From Roseimaritima multifibrata (lineage in GTDB: Bacteria; Planctomycetota; Planctomycetia; Pirellulales; Pirellulaceae): a DNA stretch of 64,000 bases. The stretch is from positions 2,170,001 to 2,234,000 of the forward strand of contig NZ_CP036262.1 in the NCBI RefSeq assembly GCF_007741495.1. Direction: 5' to 3'. The notes beneath the pieces were generated by a model, which made no database searches, was not told the origin of the DNA, and saw nothing but the letters and a program-made list of their open reading frames with translations. Below, piece after piece: positions 33,903 to 45,113 of the stretch. Made by a program: the position numbers and the translations under genes. How positions within the stretch are numbered: position 1 is the stretch's first letter; each line of letters begins with the position of its first letter.

Positions 33903-36311
33903 ATGAATTTGCACTTCTTTGCTGCGATTATTGCGTGTCGGAACGCTGTTTCTCTTGGCGTGCTGATTCTGTTTGCCGTCTTGCCTGGCACGGTTCGTGG
34001 GGATTGGCAGGATGCGGATCTCGATTCGGTTGCTCGATTTGTTTCGTCGCATTGCGTGGATTGCCATGCCTCGGGTGATGCGGTTGGTAACTTTGATATC
34101 GAAGCGATTCCGCTTTCGGTTGCGGAGCTGAATTTGGCCGATTTTGATACGGCCCCCTGGGAACGAATCCTGCGACGGATCGATACTCGGCAGATGCCGC
34201 CTCCGGATGCTGATCGCCCGGCGGAGGCGGAATACGTTGCCGCGGCGGAAGCCCTTGGTCGAATACTTGCCGAGCGTGCGGAAGTGTTTCCGCGCACCGG
34301 TAAAGTTGCGGCGATCCGCCGGATGACGCGGATGGAATATCAAAATGCGATTCGCGATCTGTTGGGCGTTTCCATCGATGCTGCCTCATATCTTCCCAAA
34401 GACGAAGCGAGTCACGGATTTGACAATATTACGGTCGGCGAACTCTCGCCGACGCATTTGAATCGATACCTCTCGGCGGCTCAGGCGATCAGCCGTGCAA
34501 GTCTGGGTGGGATTGGTAATGGCCCCAGCGGTGTCACGATCCGTGTTCCTGCCGACCGCTCGCAAGAAGATCATGTCGCAGGGCTTCCTTTTGGGACTCG
34601 CGGTGGCACCCGTTTTGAGCATCTGTTTCCGCAGACCGGCGAATATGAGTTCGAACTGAAATTGACGCGGGATCGTGATGAGAAAGTGGAGGGGCTTTTT
34701 CAGTCTCATGATATTGACGTTCTGGTGGACCGCGAACCGTTGCATCGCTTTACGGTCCACCCACCGGGCAAAACGGCGGGATCGAATCGCAATGACTATA
34801 CCCATGTCGATTCGCATTTACGGTGTCGCGTGCAAATCGACGCAGGGCTCCGTTCCGTTGGCGTCACCTTTCCAAAAACATTTGCGTCACTGGTTGAGTC
34901 AAAGCGTCAGCCGTTTGATGCTAGTTTTAATCGCCACCGGCATCCCCGCCGGACGCCCGCGATCTATCAGATTTCGATCGTAGGGCCGTTTAACGGGAAA
35001 GGCCCCGGCAACACGCTCAGCCGAAGAATGATCTTTGGTGATTCCGGGGTCCCACAAGCGACCGACCGCGACCAAGCAAAGTCGATTCTGGCAAAGGTGG
35101 CCCGCATCGCCTATCGAAGGAATCTTGACGAACAGGATTTGACGGTCCTGATGCGTTTTTTTGATCTTGAATCCGATGTTGGATTTGAAGCGGGGATTGA
35201 ATCCGGGATCGCTGCGATATTGGTTAACCCGAATTTTCTGTTTCGCGTCGAGCAAACGCCGGCGGTTGAAGAGGGGGCGGCGGTCGGATTCATTAGCGAT
35301 TTCGAATTGGCTTCGCGTCTCTCTTACTTCTTATGGAGCAGTTTGCCGGATGAACGGCTGCTGCAGCTGGCGGAAAGCCAGCAACTGCACAAGCGGGATG
35401 TCCTTCGCACCGAAGTGGAGCGGATGTTGTTGGATGATCGCTCTCGTTCATTGGTCGATAACTTTGCTTCCCAGTGGCTCTATTTGCAAAATCTAGAATC
35501 GATTACCCCCGACTTACGGTTGTTTCCAGACTTTGACGACAATCTTCGTCAAGCTTTTCAGCAAGAAACGAAACACCTCTTTCTGCAGGTTCTTCGCGAT
35601 GATCGAAGTGTCTTGGATCTGATTCGATCGAAGCACACGTTTTTGAATGAGCGGCTTGCCACGCATTATGGGATTGCGGGCGTCACTGGCAGTGAATTTC
35701 GACGCGTTGAACTGGACGGTAACAGCCATCGCGGAGGGATCTTGCGGCATGGCAGTATCCTGATGGTGACCTCTTACGCGACTCGTACATCGCCGACGAT
35801 TCGTGGTAACTGGGTTCTTGAAAATATCTTTGGCACCCCCGCGCCACCTCCGCCACCGGACATTCCAAATTTGAAGGAAATGTCATCGGTGAAAGCGTCG
35901 ACGGTTCGCGAGCGTTTAGCGGTCCACCGTCAGAACCCGGCCTGTGCAAGTTGCCATGATCGAATCGACCCGGTTGGATTTGCGCTTGAAAATTTTGATG
36001 CCGTTGGCCGCTGGCGGACTTTTGAAGGAACCCTTGCTGTCGATTCACGCGGAGCGCTGCCGGATGGATCGGAAGTGCTGTCGGTTGACGATCTGGAAAA
36101 CGGGATCGTGAATCGGCCGACGATTTTTGCTCGGACGTTGACCGAGAAACTGATGACGTTTGCACTCGGCCGATCCGTTGAAGCGGCGGACGGTCCTGCA
36201 GTTAGACAAGTTGTTCAGAACGCAGCAAGACAAAACTATCGCTTTTCAAGCCTCCTTACCGAGATCGTGCTAAGCGATCCATTCCGTTTGCGGAGTACCG
36301 TTGAACCATGA
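33903..36311 (+). CDS. Planctomycete cytochrome protein with PSCyt and DUF1587/1595/1592/1588/1585 domains
   Basis: 802 residues, secreted by an N-terminal hydrophobic signal (AVSLGVLILFAVLPGTVRG). The first heme-type motif CVDCH is at 51-55. The DUF1587 region follows (RRMTRMEYQNAIRDLLGV). After a beta-rich stretch come DUF1595 (RIAYRRNLDEQDL), DUF1592 (FELASRLSYFLWSSLPDERLLQLAESQ) and DUF1588 (GGILRHGSILMVTSYATRTSPTIRG split, with a second motif CASCH at 681-685, then HDRIDPVGFALENFDAVGRWR). DUF1585 ends it (TEKLMTFALGRSVEAAD). Enzymatic role unknown; periplasmic redox work on polymers is often suggested. It overlaps the next gene by ATGA. Confidence 0.88.
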   Translation: MNLHFFAAIIACRNAVSLGVLILFAVLPGTVRGDWQDADLDSVARFVSSHCVDCHASGDAVGNFDIEAIPLSVAELNLADFDTAPWERILRRIDTRQMPPPDADRPAEAEYVAAAEALGRILAERAEVFPRTGKVAAIRRMTRMEYQNAIRDLLGVSIDAASYLPKDEASHGFDNITVGELSPTHLNRYLSAAQAISRASLGGIGNGPSGVTIRVPADRSQEDHVAGLPFGTRGGTRFEHLFPQTGEYEFELKLTRDRDEKVEGLFQSHDIDVLVDREPLHRFTVHPPGKTAGSNRNDYTHVDSHLRCRVQIDAGLRSVGVTFPKTFASLVESKRQPFDASFNRHRHPRRTPAIYQISIVGPFNGKGPGNTLSRRMIFGDSGVPQATDRDQAKSILAKVARIAYRRNLDEQDLTVLMRFFDLESDVGFEAGIESGIAAILVNPNFLFRVEQTPAVEEGAAVGFISDFELASRLSYFLWSSLPDERLLQLAESQQLHKRDVLRTEVERMLLDDRSRSLVDNFASQWLYLQNLESITPDLRLFPDFDDNLRQAFQQETKHLFLQVLRDDRSVLDLIRSKHTFLNERLATHYGIAGVTGSEFRRVELDGNSHRGGILRHGSILMVTSYATRTSPTIRGNWVLENIFGTPAPPPPPDIPNLKEMSSVKASTVRERLAVHRQNPACASCHDRIDPVGFALENFDAVGRWRTFEGTLAVDSRGALPDGSEVLSVDDLENGIVNRPTIFARTLTEKLMTFALGRSVEAADGPAVRQVVQNAARQNYRFSSLLTEIVLSDPFRLRSTVEP

Positions 36312-37648
36312 GAAAGCTATCCATATCCCGGCGAACGATGTTACGCGGTACCGGGACTGCGATTTCACTTCCGTTGCTTGACGCGATGGTTCCCGCAATG
36401 ACGGCATTGGCCGACACCGTCGCTGCCGATAACCATTTGAAGCGGATCGGTTATATCTATGTTCCGATGGGCTTTAATCCGGCGCACTGGACGCCAACGG
36501 ACGATACTCTGGAGCAGCTTCCTTCCAGTTTGGAACCGCTTCAGGCGATCAAGGATCAAGTCACCGTCATCACGAATACCGATCTGAAGAATGCCTACCC
36601 AGGATCACATGCGACATCGAATTCGACGTTCTTGAGTGCCGCTAGGGCTAAGCAGACGGAGAGCAGCGACTATCGCAGCGGCACGACGGTTGATCAAATT
36701 GCGGCCCGCCATATTGGACAGGATTCGCAGCTTCCTTCCCTTGAGCTTTCGATGGACCTGTTGTCGACCGTCGGGCAGTGCGACAACGGATACGCCTGCG
36801 TCTACCAGAACAGTTTGTCTTGGTCGTCGCCAACCGCTCCGCTTCCCTCCGAGGCACACCCGCGGATCGTGTTTGAGAGCTTGTTCGGTGAAGGAGGTAC
36901 GCCCGAGCAACGTCGGATCGCCCTGCAAAAGCGAAGCAGTTTGCTGGATTTGGTTACCGGTGAAATCAAACGGATTAAACAGCGAGTGGGGCCGGGCGAT
37001 CGAAACAAGATCGACGGATACCTTGATAGTATTCGCGAAGTCGAACGCCGGATCCAAAATGCGGAACGCAATGCTGCTGACAATCCGCTGCCGGATCTGG
37101 ATCGGCCCGTCGGCGTGCCGACTGACTATGCGGAACATGCGGCGCTAATGTTCGAGCTTCAATTGTTGGCATTTCAAGGTGATATTACCCGCGTTGTCAG
37201 TTTCCAGTTGGCTCGCGAGGCAAGTACACGCACCTATCCGGAAATTGGTGTTCCCGAACCGCATCACCCGATTACCCATCACGGGAAAGATCCCGAGAAA
37301 CTAGAAAAGGTGGCGAAGATCAATCGCTTTCATCTGTCGTTGTTCGCTGATTTTCTGAAACGGATGCAGGAAACGCCTGAGGGGAACGGGAATTTGTTGG
37401 ACCATTCCCTCTACATGTATGGGAGTGGGATGGGAGATCCCGATAAGCATGACCACACCAATTTGCCGTTGGTGATTGCCGGAGGGGCTGCGGGACAGAT
37501 GCGCGGTGGAAGGCATATTCAGTACGACGACCCGATGCCGCTGTCCAATGTGCACTTGACCCTGCTGAACAAGATCGGTGTGCCGCTAGAATCCTTTGCC
37601 GACAGTACGGGCACGATCGACGAACTGTTTGATCCCGTGACGCTTTAA
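36308..37648 (+). CDS. DUF1552 (HxxSHH-type) protein with Tat-like signal
   Basis: 446 residues. Twin-arginine leader SRRTMLRGTGTAISLPLLDAM suggests Tat export, fitting a folded, metal-containing enzyme. DUF1552 landmarks: YVPMGFNPAHWTPT, SHATSNSTFLSAARAKQTE, SLELSMD, YDSIREVERRI-like helices and the metal-type motif HHPITHHGKDPEK (Thr in place of Ser in HxxSHH). The end has YMYGSGMGDPDKHDHTNLPLVIAGG. It resembles DUF1501, a sulfatase/phosphatase-fold family. Start overlaps the previous stop (ATGA), so the cytochrome and this protein are translationally coupled and probably act together. Confidence 0.9.
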   Translation: MRKLSISRRTMLRGTGTAISLPLLDAMVPAMTALADTVAADNHLKRIGYIYVPMGFNPAHWTPTDDTLEQLPSSLEPLQAIKDQVTVITNTDLKNAYPGSHATSNSTFLSAARAKQTESSDYRSGTTVDQIAARHIGQDSQLPSLELSMDLLSTVGQCDNGYACVYQNSLSWSSPTAPLPSEAHPRIVFESLFGEGGTPEQRRIALQKRSSLLDLVTGEIKRIKQRVGPGDRNKIDGYLDSIREVERRIQNAERNAADNPLPDLDRPVGVPTDYAEHAALMFELQLLAFQGDITRVVSFQLAREASTRTYPEIGVPEPHHPITHHGKDPEKLEKVAKINRFHLSLFADFLKRMQETPEGNGNLLDHSLYMYGSGMGDPDKHDHTNLPLVIAGGAAGQMRGGRHIQYDDPMPLSNVHLTLLNKIGVPLESFADSTGTIDELFDPVTL

Positions 37649-37694
37649 CCCGATTGGACGATTCCAGGCACGCTTTCGATCCTTTGTTTTAAGG

Positions 37695-39137
37695 TTGTCT
37701 GTTTTGTTGACTCTTCTGAACATCCGGCAGGGATTCGTCTTGATGGTCCTTACGATTGCAACGCCAGTGGTGGTCGCTGCGCCGCCTCAAACCCTGGCCG
37801 ATTTGGCGGAAGGGAAGGACTGGGATCGCGTCAGCGCGATGTTGGAGAAAGGGGAGGACGCCGGTTCGAAGCAGCCGGATGGAACGACGGCTTTGCACTG
37901 GGCGGCATTCTACGATCAGGCCGAAATGGTTAAACGCTTAGCAAAGCACGGTGCGGACCTGGACGCATTGAATCGCTATCAGGTGTCGCCGCTGAGTCTG
38001 GCGTGCGAATATGGGAATGCCAAAGCGGCGATGGCACTGATCGAATTGGACGCGGATGTCGAATCGAAACGGATTGGCAAAGAGACGCCCTTGATGCTGG
38101 CTGCGCGAAACGGAGATCCGCAGATCGTGAAGAGGCTTCTCCAGCATGGTGCCTCCGTCAAATCACAAGAGGTTGGTGGGCAAACCGCTCTGATGTGGGC
38201 TGCCGCCGCAGGGAATGCTGAAGCGGCTGCGCTGTTGATCGATGCGGGAGCCGATATCCATCGAACATTGCGGGCGTCTGGGTTTTCTGCGCCCATGTTT
38301 GCGGCTCGCCAAGGGCAAACCGACGTGATGATGAAGTTCATCGAATCGGGGTTTGACGTCCACACGGTCATCCAGCCGAAAAGGAGTGGGGCCCGTGATC
38401 CGCGGAAGGGGACGTCGGCGTTGCTGTTGGCCGTCGAAAGTGGGCATTTAGACCTTGCCCTTCGTCTGGTGGAAGCGGGCGCGGACCCGAACGACCAACG
38501 CAGCGGTTTTGCGCCGCTGCATGCAATCACGTGGGTGCGACGAACCGAACGAGGAGACAACCCGGCGGGGGATCCTGCGCCACGGATTACGGGGGACTTA
38601 AGTACGCTGGATTTTGTCAAAGCGATCGTCGCGGCGGGAGCGGATATCAACCTTCGGATTCACAACGGGAAACCTCGCGGAGGCCGTTTGAATCCGAAAG
38701 GGGCCACCCCCTTCTTGTTGGCGTCGCGGGGCGCCGATATTCCGCTGATGCGATTGATGTTGGAACTGGGGGCCGATCCAACGATCCCGAACGCCGATGG
38801 GACAACACCCCTGTTGGCGGCCGCCGGGGTGGGCGTGATTGCGGTGGGCGAAGAACCGGGGACGGAGGAAGAAGTGAATCTCGCGTTGCGAATGTTGTGC
38901 GATCTTGGCCTGGATCCGAACGCGGTCGATCGCAAGGGAGAAACCGCCATGCATGGTGCTGCACTCCGCACTTTCCCAAAAACCGTCGCGGTCCTGGCTG
39001 AGCTTGGGGCCGATCCCAAGATCTGGAATCGTGAAAACAGACGCGGGTGGACGCCTCACGAGATCGCTGCCGGGCAGCGTCCAGGCAGTGTAAAACCGTC
39101 GCCGGTGACCATCGCGGCTCTCGACGAAGCTCTGTGA
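37695..39137 (+). CDS. Secreted ankyrin-repeat protein
   Basis: 480 residues from a TTG at 37695, which gives a plausible signal peptide (LLNIRQGFVLMVLTIATPVVVAAPP); an internal ATG at 37743 is the alternative. Ankyrin repeats run nearly the whole length, for example DGTTALHWAAFYDQAEMVKRL, IGKETPLMLAARNGDPQIVKRL, GGQTALMWAAAAGNAEAAALLI and KGATPFLLASRGADIPLMRLML, each followed by xxGAD or ELGAD. It follows the DUF1552 gene by 46 bp, which fits the common pairing of ankyrin and cytochrome genes in planctomycetes. A scaffold role is inferred. The stop lies in a 7-bp hairpin (39116-39142). Confidence 0.85.
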   Translation: MSVLLTLLNIRQGFVLMVLTIATPVVVAAPPQTLADLAEGKDWDRVSAMLEKGEDAGSKQPDGTTALHWAAFYDQAEMVKRLAKHGADLDALNRYQVSPLSLACEYGNAKAAMALIELDADVESKRIGKETPLMLAARNGDPQIVKRLLQHGASVKSQEVGGQTALMWAAAAGNAEAAALLIDAGADIHRTLRASGFSAPMFAARQGQTDVMMKFIESGFDVHTVIQPKRSGARDPRKGTSALLLAVESGHLDLALRLVEAGADPNDQRSGFAPLHAITWVRRTERGDNPAGDPAPRITGDLSTLDFVKAIVAAGADINLRIHNGKPRGGRLNPKGATPFLLASRGADIPLMRLMLELGADPTIPNADGTTPLLAAAGVGVIAVGEEPGTEEEVNLALRMLCDLGLDPNAVDRKGETAMHGAALRTFPKTVAVLAELGADPKIWNRENRRGWTPHEIAAGQRPGSVKPSPVTIAALDEAL

Positions 39138-39260: not shown

Positions 39261-41264
39261 CTACCTTGCGTTTCGTAGGGTCCACCATAACTGTCGCAGC
39301 GCGACCGCTGGATCGTCGCTGCTGGCTCGCAGATTCTCAGCCGCTTCGCGTTGCTGCTTGCTGGGGGTCCAGTAGCCGGCCGCGTAGAACAGGTGCAAAG
39401 CCTGTTCGTCGTAGGAGTCGATCGAATGGAGCCACTGAGCGGGGATCGTTGCCGACGTTTCGTGGGAAGTCGGAAAGGTGGTTCGCAGCCAATCCTCAAG
39501 CGATACATCCGGTTTGCGCCGGACGTACGGTTTGGTGTATTCGGTCGCGATTGGCTGGGCAAGCGTGGCAGGTACCGCGTTGATGTTGTTGCCGCCGTTC
39601 CACTGCATGGCTAAATCGACCAATCCTTCCAGAGGAAGCGATTCGGTTGCCGCAGGGAAAGCCGCAAAGACGCGTTCTTTAGATTCCGCGTTTGCCAGTT
39701 CGACATTGGATGCCCAGATGCCTTCCTGGGAACGAGCGTCCAAAGCTTGTGATTGATGCATCGGTGGAGCCGTCACGATCCAACTGACCAGTTTGGAGAT
39801 GTTGAAATCATAGGCTCGCGTTTGGCTGGCCAAGTAGTCGCGAATCTGCGTAAATTCCTGCTCACTTGGTGGCGCGTCGGGATCCGAAACCGCTCCCGTC
39901 AATGGACGACCGTAGACGGCACTCCATAGACGATTCACCAGCGCCTGCGCCAGGCGTGGGTTGTTTTTCCAGTAGGATGAAACGGCTCGCAATTCGGTCA
40001 GCTTTAAATCGGTTTGATTTTCGGGGACCAATCCCAGCCAGGCGGCCGGGATCGCGGGTTCGGCATAGCGTTGGCGGCCGTCGGCCAATTCGTAGAACAG
40101 GTCTTTGGGGGAGGTCGGATCTTTGGCAACGCCGCGCTGCAGAACCGAAGCAAACGCCCAGTAGTCCGACTGTTGCAGTTTGCTGTCCAGCGGATGGTCA
40201 TGGCAGCGAGCACAGCCAGCATCGACGTCCAACAGGCTATGAGCAACCTGCTGCGTCAGTTCCAGTCCGCTGTCCCCGCGGAGGCTTTTCTGCCAGATCC
40301 AGGGAGCCGTCGATTTCTCGGGAGCGGAAGCAAACAGTTGTGTGACGATGACGTCAAAACCGGCATCTTCGTTCAGTGCGTCGGAAACAAATTGTTGCAG
40401 CGTTTCGCGTTCGGTTTTATCGAGCGGTTTCCAGTCCCGTCCCAGTAATTGTTCAAGCAGCAATTGACTGATTGCGTCTCGAGCCGCCTCCGTTTTCAGT
40501 TGAGCCTGAACGGTCGTCGCATTGATTTCTTTTGTCGGATCGATTTCGATCGACAACAGGCTTTCCAGTCGCGACGCAACTTCGTCGGAGTTCGCCAATG
40601 CCGTGGGCTGCACGTCGACCTGTTTCCATGCCGCTAAGAAATGTTCGCCCAGTTGTTTCCGAATCACCGGTTCACGGTCCGCGACCGGTGGCAAAACCTT
40701 GGCTTGGGTCAATAGTTCCGCGGTGTAGCGGAAACTTTGCTCCGGCGTGAGCGGGCTCTCTTTCGGGTTCGCGAACGGCTCCAGATCGTTGGGGTCGTTA
40801 GCGTTTGCTAGATCGGTTGTGGAGGCAGGAAGGTCTAGCGGGTAGGAAGGGTCGACCGCTGTGGAATTTGCCAAATCGTTGCGAAGGGTATCGTCCATCG
40901 CCGCTGGATTGTCCGATCTGTTTTGTTCTGGTTCCCCGGTCACTCCGGCGACTTCACTGTTGGGGTCTTGATCGTTGAGGCCGCGAACGGAGACCAGCAG
41001 CAATGTTGCAGCGGCGAGCGCTGCGATTCCCAAGATTGCGACGGAGAACGCGCGACGTTTTTTCGATCTGGATGCCCCATCGACGCCTATACCCAACCGA
41101 TTTTCCGCAAGGGAATCGGCCGGTTCGTTCTGCAAACGCTGCAGAATGATATCGGTCTGGTCCACGGGACGACCGCCACCAAGGATCTCCGTTAGGAAAA
41201 CCTCTAGCGCGGCATCGTCGACGCTGGATCGGGTTAGATCGTGTTGAGTTGGTTCGTCACGCAT
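39261..41264 (-). CDS. Membrane anti-sigma-like protein fused to a DUF1549/DUF1553-type cytochrome domain
   Basis: 667 residues. The first 70 are cytoplasmic, acidic and helical (DDAALEVFLTEILGGGRP), then one membrane span near 72-93 after RSKKRR, so the remaining 570 residues face the periplasm. That part contains the heme-type motif CARCHDHPLD (Cys351, Cys354, His355) and, further on, LVNRLWSAVYGRPLTG and KLVSWIVTAPPMHQSQ. These align with CTQCHNHPF, FVNRMWGHFLGYG and QLIEWITLSRPYQLSSQ of the DUF1549/1553 protein encoded at 43143-44789. No zinc HxxxCxxC anti-sigma motif is visible. The start overlaps the sigma gene by 31 bp. Anti-sigma function is inferred from topology and position. Confidence 0.8.
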   Translation of the reverse strand: MRDEPTQHDLTRSSVDDAALEVFLTEILGGGRPVDQTDIILQRLQNEPADSLAENRLGIGVDGASRSKKRRAFSVAILGIAALAAATLLLVSVRGLNDQDPNSEVAGVTGEPEQNRSDNPAAMDDTLRNDLANSTAVDPSYPLDLPASTTDLANANDPNDLEPFANPKESPLTPEQSFRYTAELLTQAKVLPPVADREPVIRKQLGEHFLAAWKQVDVQPTALANSDEVASRLESLLSIEIDPTKEINATTVQAQLKTEAARDAISQLLLEQLLGRDWKPLDKTERETLQQFVSDALNEDAGFDVIVTQLFASAPEKSTAPWIWQKSLRGDSGLELTQQVAHSLLDVDAGCARCHDHPLDSKLQQSDYWAFASVLQRGVAKDPTSPKDLFYELADGRQRYAEPAIPAAWLGLVPENQTDLKLTELRAVSSYWKNNPRLAQALVNRLWSAVYGRPLTGAVSDPDAPPSEQEFTQIRDYLASQTRAYDFNISKLVSWIVTAPPMHQSQALDARSQEGIWASNVELANAESKERVFAAFPAATESLPLEGLVDLAMQWNGGNNINAVPATLAQPIATEYTKPYVRRKPDVSLEDWLRTTFPTSHETSATIPAQWLHSIDSYDEQALHLFYAAGYWTPSKQQREAAENLRASSDDPAVALRQLWWTLRNAR

Positions 41265-41785
41265 GTTTTTAACTGTTGTTTGGCTCGCTGCATTAAATTG
41301 CGAGCGCCATGTTCGGAAATGCCCAGTGCATCCCCGATTTCGGCTCGGCTTGCCGAGTCGGAGTAACGCATTCGAAGTGCCTTGCGGGCTCGGTCGGTCA
41401 GGGCTGCGAGGCAGTTACGCAGTGCGTCACCCGCTTCGTCCCCCGTTAGATCGGCCCCTGCCCAGCGATCCCAAGATTCATCGAATAATTCAAACGCTGC
41501 GACCGGTTGTTCTTTTGCTTTTCGGCGATGCATTGAAACGACCAAGTTATAGGCCGTTCGCCGCAAGTAAGCCGATGTCGCCGCGTCACTGTGTTGCACG
41601 AAGGTGTCGCGTCGCAACACCTTTAAAAACGTTTCTTGAGTAATATCATCTGCCGTGCTCGCATCGCATCCCAACACGCGCAGGTACCTCCAGACGCCCT
41701 TCTGGTGGCGTTTGATAAGTTCCGCTGGTGTCCGTTCAACGTGTTCGTTAATCGTGGACTTCTGCTTTGAACTAGCAATACTCAA
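41234..41785 (-). CDS. ECF-type RNA polymerase sigma factor
   Basis: 183 residues from a TTG at 41785, 9 bp after the DUF1501 stop; no better start is present. Region 2 is seen in GVWRYLRVLGCDASTADDITQETFLKVLR and AYLRRTAYNLVVSMHRRKAKE. Region 4 is LAALTDRARKALRMRYSDSASRAEIGDALGISEHGARNLMQRAKQQL, with its helix-turn-helix. It should direct polymerase to a small regulon. The rare TTG start suggests low output. The overlapping downstream membrane protein is its likely anti-sigma partner, and the two upstream genes are likely targets or partners. Confidence 0.9.
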   Translation of the reverse strand: MSIASSKQKSTINEHVERTPAELIKRHQKGVWRYLRVLGCDASTADDITQETFLKVLRRDTFVQHSDAATSAYLRRTAYNLVVSMHRRKAKEQPVAAFELFDESWDRWAGADLTGDEAGDALRNCLAALTDRARKALRMRYSDSASRAEIGDALGISEHGARNLMQRAKQQLKTCVTNQLNTI

Positions 41786-41794
41786 AAGGAAAAC

Positions 41795-43081
41795 CTAAAC
41801 GATGAGTTCTCGGATTAGTTTTCCACCGCCTGCAATCTTCATCGGACGGCCATTTTTCGAGGTGTAGGTTGTTTCCAAAGAAATTCCCAACCCACGGCAA
41901 ACGGTTGCCATCAGATCTTCGCTGCTGAATGGTTCGGATTCAACGGTTGAACCATCGCTGCTGGTTTCGCCGACAGCCAAACCACCTTTGAGCCCGCCGC
42001 CACCAACCACGCAGCTCCAGGCTCGTGCAAAGTGGTCGCGTCCCGCACCGGCGTTGATGCGTGGGGTACGGCCGAATTCACCCATCCAGATAATCGCGGT
42101 GTTTTCCAGCAGCCCACGTTGTTCAAGGTCGGCGGTCAGGGCTCCCATTGCCTTGTCCATTTGCGGCAATTTGGTATCGGCCAGGGTTGGGAAAATCCCC
42201 GCGTGATTGTCCCAGCCGCCCAGATCGACTTCGATAAAGGGAACGCTCGCTTCGACAAGGCGTCTGGCCAGCAAGCAACCTTGGCCGAAGCGGTTGGTGC
42301 CGTACATCTCTTTCATCGCTTCAGGTTCTTCGTCAACCTTAAACGCTTTCATCTGTTCGCTTGTCATTAGATCAAGCGTCTTCTTCAGTACTTTTTGGTG
42401 CTCGGTGGCCGCGGAAGCTCGGGTGCGGCCGATGAATCCTGATTCGATTACATCAAGCGCTGCCATTCGTTGCAGTAAGCGACGCTCTTCCAGTTGCATT
42501 TTCAGGTTTCGGATCTGGCCGTTGCTGGTTACCGAGAATGGAGCCCAGGCCATGCCGAGGAATCCTGGTCCAGTGCTGGCGCCGCCGATCGAAACAAACG
42601 GAGGGATCGCTAGTCCGTCGCGTTGGCCGTACAGTTCGTGAGCCAGCACGCTTCCGTAGCCAGGGTGTTCGATGTTCGGGTTAGGAACATACCCGGTGTG
42701 CATGTAGTAGCGTCCGCGATTATGGTCCGCTTCGCGGGTGCTCATCGAACGAACGACCGACAGGTTGTGCATCTGTTTTGCCGTTTCCGGCATGTGCTCA
42801 CAGATTTGCATGTCACCAGAGGTGCTGATGGGATTGAACGGGCCACCCGTTGCGGTTCCCGGTTTCATGTCCCACATGTCGATCGTGGAGGGACCGCCAC
42901 CCATCCACAGCAGAATCGCAGACTTTTGGTTCTTCCGCATTTCTTCCGCATGGACGTTGATGCTGTTGCCCATCAGGGCAGCGGTGCCAGCCATCATCGA
43001 GGCACCCGCCATATGTTTGGCGAAGTGCCGGCGGGTCATCCCTGCAGGCGTTGCCCAGGGTAGGTTGGAAGGACGATGCAT
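41795..43081 (-). CDS. DUF1501 protein with Tat-like signal
   Basis: 428 residues. Leader PAGMTRRHFAKHMAGASMMAGTAALM is Tat-like. DUF1501 has an alkaline-phosphatase/sulfatase-like fold. Here ILLWMGGGPSTIDMWDMKPG, VRSMSTREADHNRGRYYMHTGY, LVEASVPFIEVDLGGWDNHAGIF and IIWMGEFGRTPRINAGAGRDH are seen, the last two holding probable metal ligands. It is encoded 61 bp after the DUF1549/1553 gene, its usual partner in Planctomycetes, and 9 bp before the sigma factor. The substrate is unknown. Confidence 0.92.
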   Translation of the reverse strand: MHRPSNLPWATPAGMTRRHFAKHMAGASMMAGTAALMGNSINVHAEEMRKNQKSAILLWMGGGPSTIDMWDMKPGTATGGPFNPISTSGDMQICEHMPETAKQMHNLSVVRSMSTREADHNRGRYYMHTGYVPNPNIEHPGYGSVLAHELYGQRDGLAIPPFVSIGGASTGPGFLGMAWAPFSVTSNGQIRNLKMQLEERRLLQRMAALDVIESGFIGRTRASAATEHQKVLKKTLDLMTSEQMKAFKVDEEPEAMKEMYGTNRFGQGCLLARRLVEASVPFIEVDLGGWDNHAGIFPTLADTKLPQMDKAMGALTADLEQRGLLENTAIIWMGEFGRTPRINAGAGRDHFARAWSCVVGGGGLKGGLAVGETSSDGSTVESEPFSSEDLMATVCRGLGISLETTYTSKNGRPMKIAGGGKLIRELIV

Positions 43082-43142
43082 TGTGAAGCTCCTAAGCGGA
43101 TTTAGAAAAGTAGTTCAGCGATTCAGAAAAGAGGCTGGGGAT

Positions 43143-44789
43143 TTAGTGTTGCATGATGAATTCGTTGCTATTGAGCAGCGCCCACCACATGTCCTGAAGC
43201 ATCGCAGCTTCGTCACCTCCTCGAGCCGCCAGCAGCTTAGTAGCCATTGTCTGCTCGTTCCGAGTAGGTCGCCGGGCGACCCCCGTCAGGAAGAGTTTGT
43301 CCAACTTTGCTCGAAGCCGTTCGTCCTCGGCACGGATGTCGCCGAGGAAGCTTCCTTTATCGATCGCGGTCGCCTGTTTGATCAGGTCTCCGTTGAACAT
43401 CATTAAAGCTTGTGGAATCGAACCGTTGAAGGTTGTCGCTTCGTCTCCTTCGTCCGTGCCGAAAGCAACCACAAACTGAGACAGCCATTTTCGCCGTGCC
43501 TGTTCTTGCTTTTCGTACGATCCTTTGGCCGAGGCTCCGGATGCGGTTAGCAGGGACTGGTACAGGTCTTCGGCCTGCATTTGGCGAAGGTAAAAATGTG
43601 AGAATTTAGGGGATTCGCCCAGAGTCGGATCGTCCAGTTCATTGTTCGAAGTCATCTGTGAACTGAGCTGATACGGACGGCTGAGGGTGATCCACTCGAT
43701 CAACTGTTTCGGGTCGTAGCTATGTTGCCGCACCTGTTCACCAAGGTACTGCAGCAGTTCAGGGTGGGACGACGGATTGTGTGGACCGAGGTCATCGATC
43801 GGTTTGGTGAACCCGTACCCGAGGAAATGTCCCCACATTCGGTTCACAAACATTTTGTCCAGGAATTCGTTGTCCAGCATCATTTTTGCCAGTTCTTCGC
43901 GGCGATTAACATCGCTCACAAATCCGCTGGCAGGGATTTCGCCTCCGTCGATAAAGACGGGGTATGCGACCTTGGTCAGTCCGTTGCGAAGTTCGTAGAA
44001 GATCATTGCGTCTTCTGGATCGCCCGCTTCGCCTGCGTAGTCTTCGTTTACCAATTCGCCATGATCGATATCACGTGTGCCGTCGACGTATCGGCGGAGC
44101 ATCCGTGATTGTCGGAAAAAGGCGTTGAATTCCCAGAATTTCTGCTGTTTCCATTGGTTAAATGGATGATTGTGACACTGGGTGCACTGGACTTGTTGGC
44201 CCAGGAAAATTCTCGATACGCTGCTGGTCGCCAGGACCCCTTTCTCTTCGTTGACCTTGTCGGCAAGGAAGTTCACGGCGCCGTTGAAGTTCTCGGTTCC
44301 CGGTTTGGTCGATCCGGTGGCCGAAACCAATTCGTAAACCATTTGGTTGTAGGATTTGTTTTGGGCAAACGAATCCCGTAGATATTTTTGCATTCCGTCG
44401 CGGCTGGTCATCGAGCGGCGGTCGGTGCCGCCACTTCGTCCGATCAGGACATTGGTCCAGATCGTCGCCCAGTTGCGAGCGTATTCTTCGGTGTATTTGT
44501 CATCGTGAAGGAGTGTCTGGACCAGTTCGCGACGTTTGTTGCGGTCACGACTTCCCAAGAATTCCGTCAATTCTTCGTACGAAGGAATCCGGCCAAGAAC
44601 GTCCAGATAGACTCGGCGACACCACTGGGCGTCGTCGGCATCGGGCGATGGGCGAATTTCGTAATCCGTCCACGTTTGCTCGATCGCTTTGTTGATCGCG
44701 GCTACCTGAGGCGGAATCGCCGCGGTTTGCGCGAAAACGACTGCCGGCATCAGCAATAGCAGACTGGAGATTATCAACGGTCGAAACAT
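43143..44789 (-). CDS. DUF1549/DUF1553 (PSCyt2/PSD1) cytochrome-like protein
   Basis: 548 residues with a clean signal peptide (LIISSLLLLMPAVVFAQ). The DUF1549 part has RRVYLDVLGRIPSYEELTEFL, VSRIFLGQQVQCTQCHNHPF (heme-type Cys202, Cys205, His206) and QQKFWEFNAFF. The DUF1553 part has FVNRMWGHFLGYGFTKPIDDLG, LIEWITLSRPYQLSS and an end DMWWALLNSNEFIMQH. AAGGAT lies about eight bases before the ATG. First gene of the operon with DUF1501, sigma factor and the fused membrane protein, of which this gene is the apparent ancestor. Reaction unknown; periplasmic redox chemistry with the DUF1501 partner is the usual guess. Confidence 0.93.
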   Translation of the reverse strand: MFRPLIISSLLLLMPAVVFAQTAAIPPQVAAINKAIEQTWTDYEIRPSPDADDAQWCRRVYLDVLGRIPSYEELTEFLGSRDRNKRRELVQTLLHDDKYTEEYARNWATIWTNVLIGRSGGTDRRSMTSRDGMQKYLRDSFAQNKSYNQMVYELVSATGSTKPGTENFNGAVNFLADKVNEEKGVLATSSVSRIFLGQQVQCTQCHNHPFNQWKQQKFWEFNAFFRQSRMLRRYVDGTRDIDHGELVNEDYAGEAGDPEDAMIFYELRNGLTKVAYPVFIDGGEIPASGFVSDVNRREELAKMMLDNEFLDKMFVNRMWGHFLGYGFTKPIDDLGPHNPSSHPELLQYLGEQVRQHSYDPKQLIEWITLSRPYQLSSQMTSNNELDDPTLGESPKFSHFYLRQMQAEDLYQSLLTASGASAKGSYEKQEQARRKWLSQFVVAFGTDEGDEATTFNGSIPQALMMFNGDLIKQATAIDKGSFLGDIRAEDERLRAKLDKLFLTGVARRPTRNEQTMATKLLAARGGDEAAMLQDMWWALLNSNEFIMQH

Positions 44790-45113
44790 ACGACCTATCC
44801 TTCGACTAAACGGAAAAGAAGAGAAATGCGACTTGCATTATGTAGTTAGAACGGTTGACAAGCTGCTCTGTACTCAGGATCGAGTCCGCAAAACCACGAT
44901 CTGTCTCGTTAGGATAAGGATTATGCTTGTTACGAGGCCCCGTTTTTAAGGGCGAAGTCCCTCTGCGGAGCCGCTTGCGAGGCTTTTCGAAGGGAGCTGG
45001 GAAGCTCCGGAAAGAAAAACCTAGGTGGGAATAAAGCCTATCAAACGTCCATTTTACCATGGTTTCAGGGTACTTTGCAAGCAAAACTCGCTTCCGTTGT
45101 TGGTCTGACTCCT

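Follow-up and report, generated by a model that had tools for sequence, protein, structure and literature searches.

In BlaR1 and MecR1, the sensor domain has a relative among the enzymes of the pathway under regulation, and the signal is transmitted via a protease and a repressor, without a sigma factor. In RsgI of Clostridium thermocellum, an N-terminal sigma-binding part is connected by one membrane helix to an outer sensor which may be an enzyme module (GH10); sigma and anti-sigma factor share an operon that is usually autoregulated (PMC12203970, PMC6056542). The class II anti-sigma factor CnrY of Cupriavidus metallidurans wraps two helices around sigma4 and sigma2, compared to four in class I (PMC7406223). 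In Rhodopirellula baltica, the extracytoplasmic function (ECF) sigma factor RB10049 and the neighbouring, PSC2- and PSD1-containing RB10051 were proposed to form a regulator pair and were upregulated in three stresses (PMC2754498). Here, we describe an operon of Roseimaritima multifibrata in which genes for a DUF1549/DUF1553 protein, a DUF1501 protein, an ECF sigma factor and a fused membrane protein follow each other in this order. It lies at positions 39261-44789 of a 64,000-nucleotide stretch of contig NZ_CP036262.1 (the window, to which all coordinates refer).

Our data point to a self-regulating ECF sigma/anti-sigma circuit (probability about 0.68), the periplasmic sensor of which would be a duplicated copy of the first gene that has ceased to resemble a functional enzyme. 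The operon, the copy origin, a conserved motif and the linkage between the cytoplasmic head of the membrane protein and the sigma factor are observed at the sequence level. The sigma factor would drive transcription of the operon through the promoter motif TGAGTAC-N16/17-CG[CT]T, which is itself observed, and the two-helix head would hold the sigma factor at the membrane. The outer domain keeps the enzyme fold and its CxxCH motif. As most sensors lack near-universal enzyme residues, it probably reports the heme or redox state or a ligand of the fold without turning over a substrate. Release of the sigma factor by the signal would then lead to more enzyme and DUF1501 protein.

Organisation and conservation of the locus

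The four open reading frames (ORFs) are located on the minus strand, with gaps of 61 and 9 bp followed by a 31-bp overlap; the source genome is a single 7.2 Mb contig. Gene 1 (43143-44789), the putative parent of the sensor domain, encodes a 548-amino-acid protein with a start that resembles a signal peptide by eye and with matches to PF07583 (E 9.6e-47) and PF07587 (E 3.3e-29), both above cut-off. Gene 2 (41795-43081) codes for a DUF1501 protein of 428 amino acids (PF07394, E 1.8e-103); its sequence TRRHFAKH near the start resembles a twin-arginine translocation (Tat) signal by eye. Gene 3 (41234-41785) encodes 183 amino acids from a TTG, the sole start codon ahead of residue 37. The protein contains sigma-70 region 2 (PF04542, residues 23-91, 7.6e-11) and region 4 (PF08281, residues 120-172, 2.2e-10) above cut-off, while region 3 (PF04539) reached 13.6 bits compared to a cut-off of 25.3. 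As a short protein with regions 2 and 4 but without region 3 it is an ECF sigma factor, and it scores best against ECF models. Gene 4 (39261-41264) encodes the fused membrane protein of 667 amino acids, our proposed anti-sigma sensor, in which partial matches to PF07583 (2.1e-12) and PF07587 (6.8e-8) exceed the cut-offs. Genes 1 and 4 both belong to the DUF1549/DUF1553 proteins, gene 4 by these partial matches. Proteins of the gene 1 and gene 4 type are referred to below as enzymes and sensors, respectively. An Rfam scan of the window gave nothing above the gathering scores, and a plain-sequence search of genome contigs found no relative.

Of the 241 genomes of the family that were searched, 152 contain a sigma factor orthologue with an E-value of 1e-45 or better. 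We compared 87 sigma loci, comprising the window, six further genomes and 80 of the 152, chosen by score and genus spread. The enzyme and DUF1501 genes are located upstream of the sigma gene in 74 of them. Among the other 13, DUF1501 is found alone in one (L091, at a contig end) and neither gene in 12, one of which (L113) lies about 0.9 kb from a contig end. For G034 and G229, an orthologue of the enzyme was detected at another place. Directly after the sigma gene, 81 loci encode a complete protein of 633-825 amino acids, four a protein cut by a contig end, and two (L067 and L083) a short frame. The gene order, spacing and overlap given in the original prediction, which was made from the sequence of the window only, agree with the ORF coordinates, and the order it described recurs across these relatives.

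Origin and residues of the outer domain

BLASTP aligned gene 4 with gene 1 at 22% identity over 265 columns (E 8e-18), and this alignment includes the blocks that had originally been matched between the two proteins. The window by itself does not reveal whether the outer domain was copied from the enzyme of its own operon, so relatives were needed. Owing to divergence, finding the nearest paralogue by pairwise identity fails for most sensors; it was replaced by a tree, an approximately unbiased (AU) test, slowly evolving members and shared rare residues.

The tree comprised 77 rows, namely 26 sensors, 21 operon enzymes and 30 paralogues collected from search matches in seven genomes. Sensors and operon enzymes grouped together with a support of 100/100, apart from the 30 other family members, with 99/99 for the enzymes and 93/90 for the sensors. 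Trees in which eight fast-evolving sensors, including that of the window, were forced to group with the paralogues were rejected (p-AU 0.0002). The slowly evolving sensor of G006 matched its own operon enzyme with 582 bits (49% identity) and the next gene in G006 with 229 bits; in the genome of the window, it matched P0002 with 553 bits and the next gene with 196. In an hhalign comparison of the sensor and operon-enzyme profiles (probability 100, E 1.9e-85), sensor residues 202-667 (39264-40661, minus strand) aligned with enzyme residues 29-548, which is almost the whole enzyme past its signal-peptide-like start. Furthermore, five residues that are near invariant in enzymes and common in sensors are rare in paralogues (W40, W219, G270, A275 and W535), and the window sensor holds them as W213, W369, G396, A401 and W660. 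Across 2145 locus pairs, mean identity was 64% for enzymes and 23% for sensors, with the sensor being less alike in all pairs. These data fit a single duplication followed by fast change of the sensor copy, and support the outer domain being a full-length, much-changed copy of gene 1. The idea that the outer domain was duplicated from the operon's own first protein is hence supported, although not by the window copy from which it had been proposed.

To describe the architecture of gene 4, we used an AlphaFold2 model based on 62 aligned sensors (mean predicted local distance difference test (pLDDT) score 77.7). The cytoplasmic head (residues 13-46; 41127-41228, minus strand) is modelled as two helices, 13-27 and 37-46, with moderate confidence (block pLDDT 60-75), around a turn that reads GGxxPPD in the family and GGGRPVD here; residues 49-56 ahead of the membrane are weakly modelled. 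A single membrane helix follows at residues 67-94 (40983-41066, minus strand) of the model. Over 86 sensors, the mean number of lysines plus arginines is 4.8 on the N-terminal side of this helix and 1.7 on its C-terminal side, and 72 of the 86 favour a cytoplasmic N-terminus. A linker with a pLDDT mostly below 50 (residues 97-168; 40761-40976, minus strand) appears disordered and leads to the globular outer part, residues 174-666. This layout matches the short head, one span and periplasmic cytochrome-like part that had been envisaged. The gene 1 model had a mean pLDDT of 79.5, with values below 50 at residues 202-213 around its own CxxCH. A fold search of both models against the PDB gave no match with E <0.001, and a sequence search of the enzyme family against the PDB no significant relative (best E 0.85). 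The top Foldseek matches of the gene 1 model (43143-44789) were weak (best E 0.18, probability at most 0.35) and consisted of phycobilisome linker proteins, perhaps reflecting a shared helical unit.

Of 155 positions conserved to at least 97% in enzymes, sensors retain a mean of 35% and paralogues 46%; the window sensor keeps 33 of the 155. Both cysteines and the histidine of CxxCH (0.98), R59 (0.93) and W319 (0.99) are retained, whereas D63 (0.00), Y373 (0.00), R58 (0.22), N466 (0.16) and D332 (0.31), all near universal in paralogues, are lost. The extended motif CxxCHxH, represented in gene 1 by CTQCHNH (residues 202-208; 44166-44186, minus strand; pLDDT <50), occurs in every one of the 73 enzymes and in 29 of the 30 paralogues, compared to 20 of 81 sensors; the short form is CARCH in gene 4 (residues 351-355; 40200-40214, minus strand). 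The sensor outer domains thus display a pseudoenzyme-like pattern with CxxCH retained. The disappearance of near-universal family residues from most sensors speaks against an active site that is still intact and reads the enzyme's substrate, the latter being one of the signals first suggested. Two matches to PF01578 (cytochrome c assembly) were found in the genome of the window; therefore, heme attachment is possible, and we infer heme on CxxCH. L105 and L126 are full-length sensors without CxxCH that nonetheless have the enzyme gene upstream.

The cytoplasmic head as a module

A head profile (29 rows, 38 columns) was found in 83 of the 87 sensors, some of which were among its builders, and in two or more tandem copies in eight of them (L063, L066, L067, L072, L099, L103, L128 and L129, with a third copy visible by eye in L072 and L129). 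No Pfam family scored above cut-off with this profile, and PDB chains yielded nothing significant (best E 1.9). Among 296 sampled genomes of the order, 87 contain the head with an E-value of at most 1e-5. We analysed 58 head-anchored loci (L286-L301 and L346-L387, with four genomes represented twice and the weaker matches L302-L315 left out). An ECF sigma gene is located at most 900 nt upstream of the head in 56 of them, and the remaining two are a single locus of G042 with the sigma gene approximately 1 kb upstream.

The outer part following the head is variable. The first 11 head loci had a DUF1549-like outer domain in eight cases and lacked it in three. In 20 further hand-picked loci, most of which belong to other families or have long frames, so that the sample is not a fair one, the outer domain was VWA/YfbK in 17 and DUF1549/1553 in three; G058 encodes one head protein of each type. 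We therefore dropped the assumption that the head is private to gene 4-type sensors. The combination of head and VWA/YfbK with an upstream ECF sigma factor was seen in L368-L378, L380, L381 and L384-L387, largely in families of the order other than that of the window. As the head stays with the ECF sigma factor while the outer part varies, its best interpretation is that of a sigma-binding part, probably a portable anti-sigma module. Fusion of a duplicated enzyme to an anti-sigma head, as proposed in the original prediction, is consequently supported by relatives as regards duplication and fusion, and indirectly, via the ECF sigma factor beside two unrelated outer domains, as regards the anti-sigma role.

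With two short modelled helices and no Pfam family, the head does not match class I anti-sigma factors, which have a three-helix bundle and a helix 4. Residues 12-69 of the L375 protein (L375:1790-4309, minus strand) matched PF11859 (DUF3379) with E 3.6e-5 and 23.6 bits, under the cut-off of 33.2; DUF3379 could be a known family distantly related to the head. It is also conceivable, if somewhat less likely than not, that the head represents a new minimal portable anti-sigma class of about 35 residues and two helices, reading a heme-bearing pseudoenzyme copied from the regulated enzyme, and that the cell gauges the condition of this enzyme class via a dedicated replica that evolves fast.

A conserved motif upstream of the operon

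Ahead of 17 non-redundant enzyme genes, the words TGAGTAC and CGTT were over-represented as a pair 16 bases apart. In the window, this ECF-type motif, TGAGTAC-N16-CGTT, lies upstream of the operon at 44850-44876 (minus strand; GTAC..CGTT at 44850-44873), and it is also present in orthologous loci. The relaxed form [AG]GTAC-N16/17-CG[CT]T occurred in 61 of the 74 enzyme-first loci and, upstream of the sigma gene, in 11 of the 13 others, counts that are partly circular because the motif was derived on 17 regions mostly or all from these loci and relaxed on loci without it. Three of the 13 enzyme-first loci without a match had regions shorter than 50 bases. As controls, the other strand gave 1/87, windows elsewhere in the loci 69/3147 and the regions upstream of DUF1501 0/74. 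The strict CGTT form, which was found without the sigma-first loci, was present in 53 of 74 enzyme-first and 7 of 13 sigma-first loci, compared to 85 of 1740 windows drawn at random from these loci (true sites included) and 1/87 on the other strand. The promoter-like motif, being conserved ahead of the operon, fits the self-regulation that had been postulated; use of the motif by this sigma factor is the part that we propose. In the G002 genome, an identical 26-base match to the promoter pattern occurs at six places, probably within a repeated element.

Other loci in the genome and window

The genome of the window contains a further ECF sigma gene (L281:2010-6753) that is followed by a gene for a 199-amino-acid small membrane protein, anti-sigma-like by eye, and, two frames beyond it, a DUF1549 gene. 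The convergent neighbours of the operon (33903-39137) encode a DUF1587/1592/1595/1588/1585 protein, a DUF1552 protein and an ankyrin-repeat protein.

Discussion

Three other explanations compete with the proposed circuit. As a copy of the enzyme, the outer domain could bind that enzyme or the DUF1501 protein, and the circuit would then gauge the amount of free partner instead of a ligand or redox state. The position of both genes upstream of the sigma gene in 74 of 87 loci is compatible with this, as are sensors that hold the fold yet have lost family residues. A sensor that diverges to a mean identity of 23%, compared to 64% for the enzyme, would however be unexpected with a shared conserved partner, and neither gene is found beside the sigma gene in 12 of 87 loci (L113, near a contig end, being one of them), which makes such partner sensing unlikely. 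It is more improbable still that gene 4 encodes a membrane-anchored redox protein which merely shares the operon and is no anti-sigma factor. No known anti-sigma domain scored above cut-off in gene 4, and the top sigma-head coevolution score lies within the shuffles, but the same head follows an ECF sigma factor in 56 of 58 loci, it also carries the unrelated VWA/YfbK domain beside ECF sigma factors, and the sensors have lost residues of the enzyme family. Derivation of the outer domain from another DUF1549/1553 gene receives hardly any weight from us: the tree, the AU test, the slow members and the shared rare residues speak against it, even though seven places in the genome of the window outscore the operon enzyme and raw identity to the latter is no higher than to paralogues.

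The circuit itself also has to accommodate contrary observations. In the own-genome search with the window sensor, the operon enzyme appeared in row 9 of 58, behind the query in row 1 and the seven other DUF1549 places; the window sensor is 16% identical to its own enzyme compared to 19% to the best of 30 paralogues, and the operon enzyme is nearest by raw identity in just 17 of 66 sensors compared with these paralogues. CxxCH, found in 79 of 81 complete sensors, is absent in L105 and L126, while the window sensor retains the second histidine of CxxCHxH, unlike most sensors. The head profile missed 4 of 87 sensors. In the coevolution analysis (88 pairs, effective number of sequences (Meff) 67), the top score of 1.71 did not exceed the maximum of 15 shuffles (1.80); ranks 5 and 10 (1.48 and 1.24) surpassed the shuffle maxima of 1.33 and 1.18, an excess that relatedness alone can yield. 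Besides its partial circularity, the motif count has to be seen together with matches ahead of the sigma gene inside the operon in 17 of 74 loci, with 15 strict matches in the genome of the window compared to 16 in the reversed control, hence no excess, and with G034 and G229, where the displaced enzyme genes lack the motif. Given the lacking genome-wide excess and the missing motif at displaced enzymes, the circuit looks narrow.

DUF1549, DUF1553 and DUF1501 are still families of unknown function in Pfam, yet the genome of the window has 61 matches to PF07583. Since the operon comes with a sigma factor of its own, a conserved promoter motif and an enzyme-derived sensor, it would offer a genetic handle, as the signal that releases the sigma factor could reveal what the enzyme meets. 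The locus also provides a clear example of the conversion of an enzyme-like protein into a putative sensor inside one operon. Moreover, it suggests that two kinds of planctomycete sensors have in common an anti-sigma-like module for which Pfam has no family.

Relation to known regulators

Our literature search returned no paper joining DUF1549, ECF and anti-sigma, although groups in planctomycete or ECF classification papers may overlap with the present one; DUF1553, sigma factor and Planctomycetes appeared together in one paper (PMC2754498). The accessible parts of PMC8103513 and PMC8999054 contain no mention of this system. The pair RB10049/RB10051 resembles our locus in that an ECF sigma factor is proposed to regulate a DUF1549/1553 protein. 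RB10049 is given there as 217 amino acids on the plus strand, whereas the sigma orthologue in the presumed R. baltica genome G187 is a 194-amino-acid frame on the minus strand. As strand and length differ, RB10049 probably belongs to another locus.

The gene 4 head is similar in size to CnrY and is likewise modelled with two short helices. It differs in that its profile matched none of the PDB chains and that the outer part is another one; binding of the sigma factor is putative for the head described here. BlaR1 and MecR1 share with the proposed circuit a sensor related to an enzyme, but act through a protease and a repressor where a sigma factor would act here.

RsgI anti-sigma factors, some of which carry outer enzyme modules, would work in a similar way. 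Gene 4 has the same layout of N-terminal head, one membrane helix and enzyme-related outer part. Gene 4 is nevertheless not an RsgI protein: its putative partner is best described by ECF models, and Pfam assigns only PSCyt2 and PSD1. While RsgI is paired with SigI and carries carbohydrate-binding or hydrolase modules, the Roseimaritima sensor combines an ECF sigma factor as its putative partner with a different head and with a CxxCH-containing outer domain that appears to be a copy of the first gene of its own operon.

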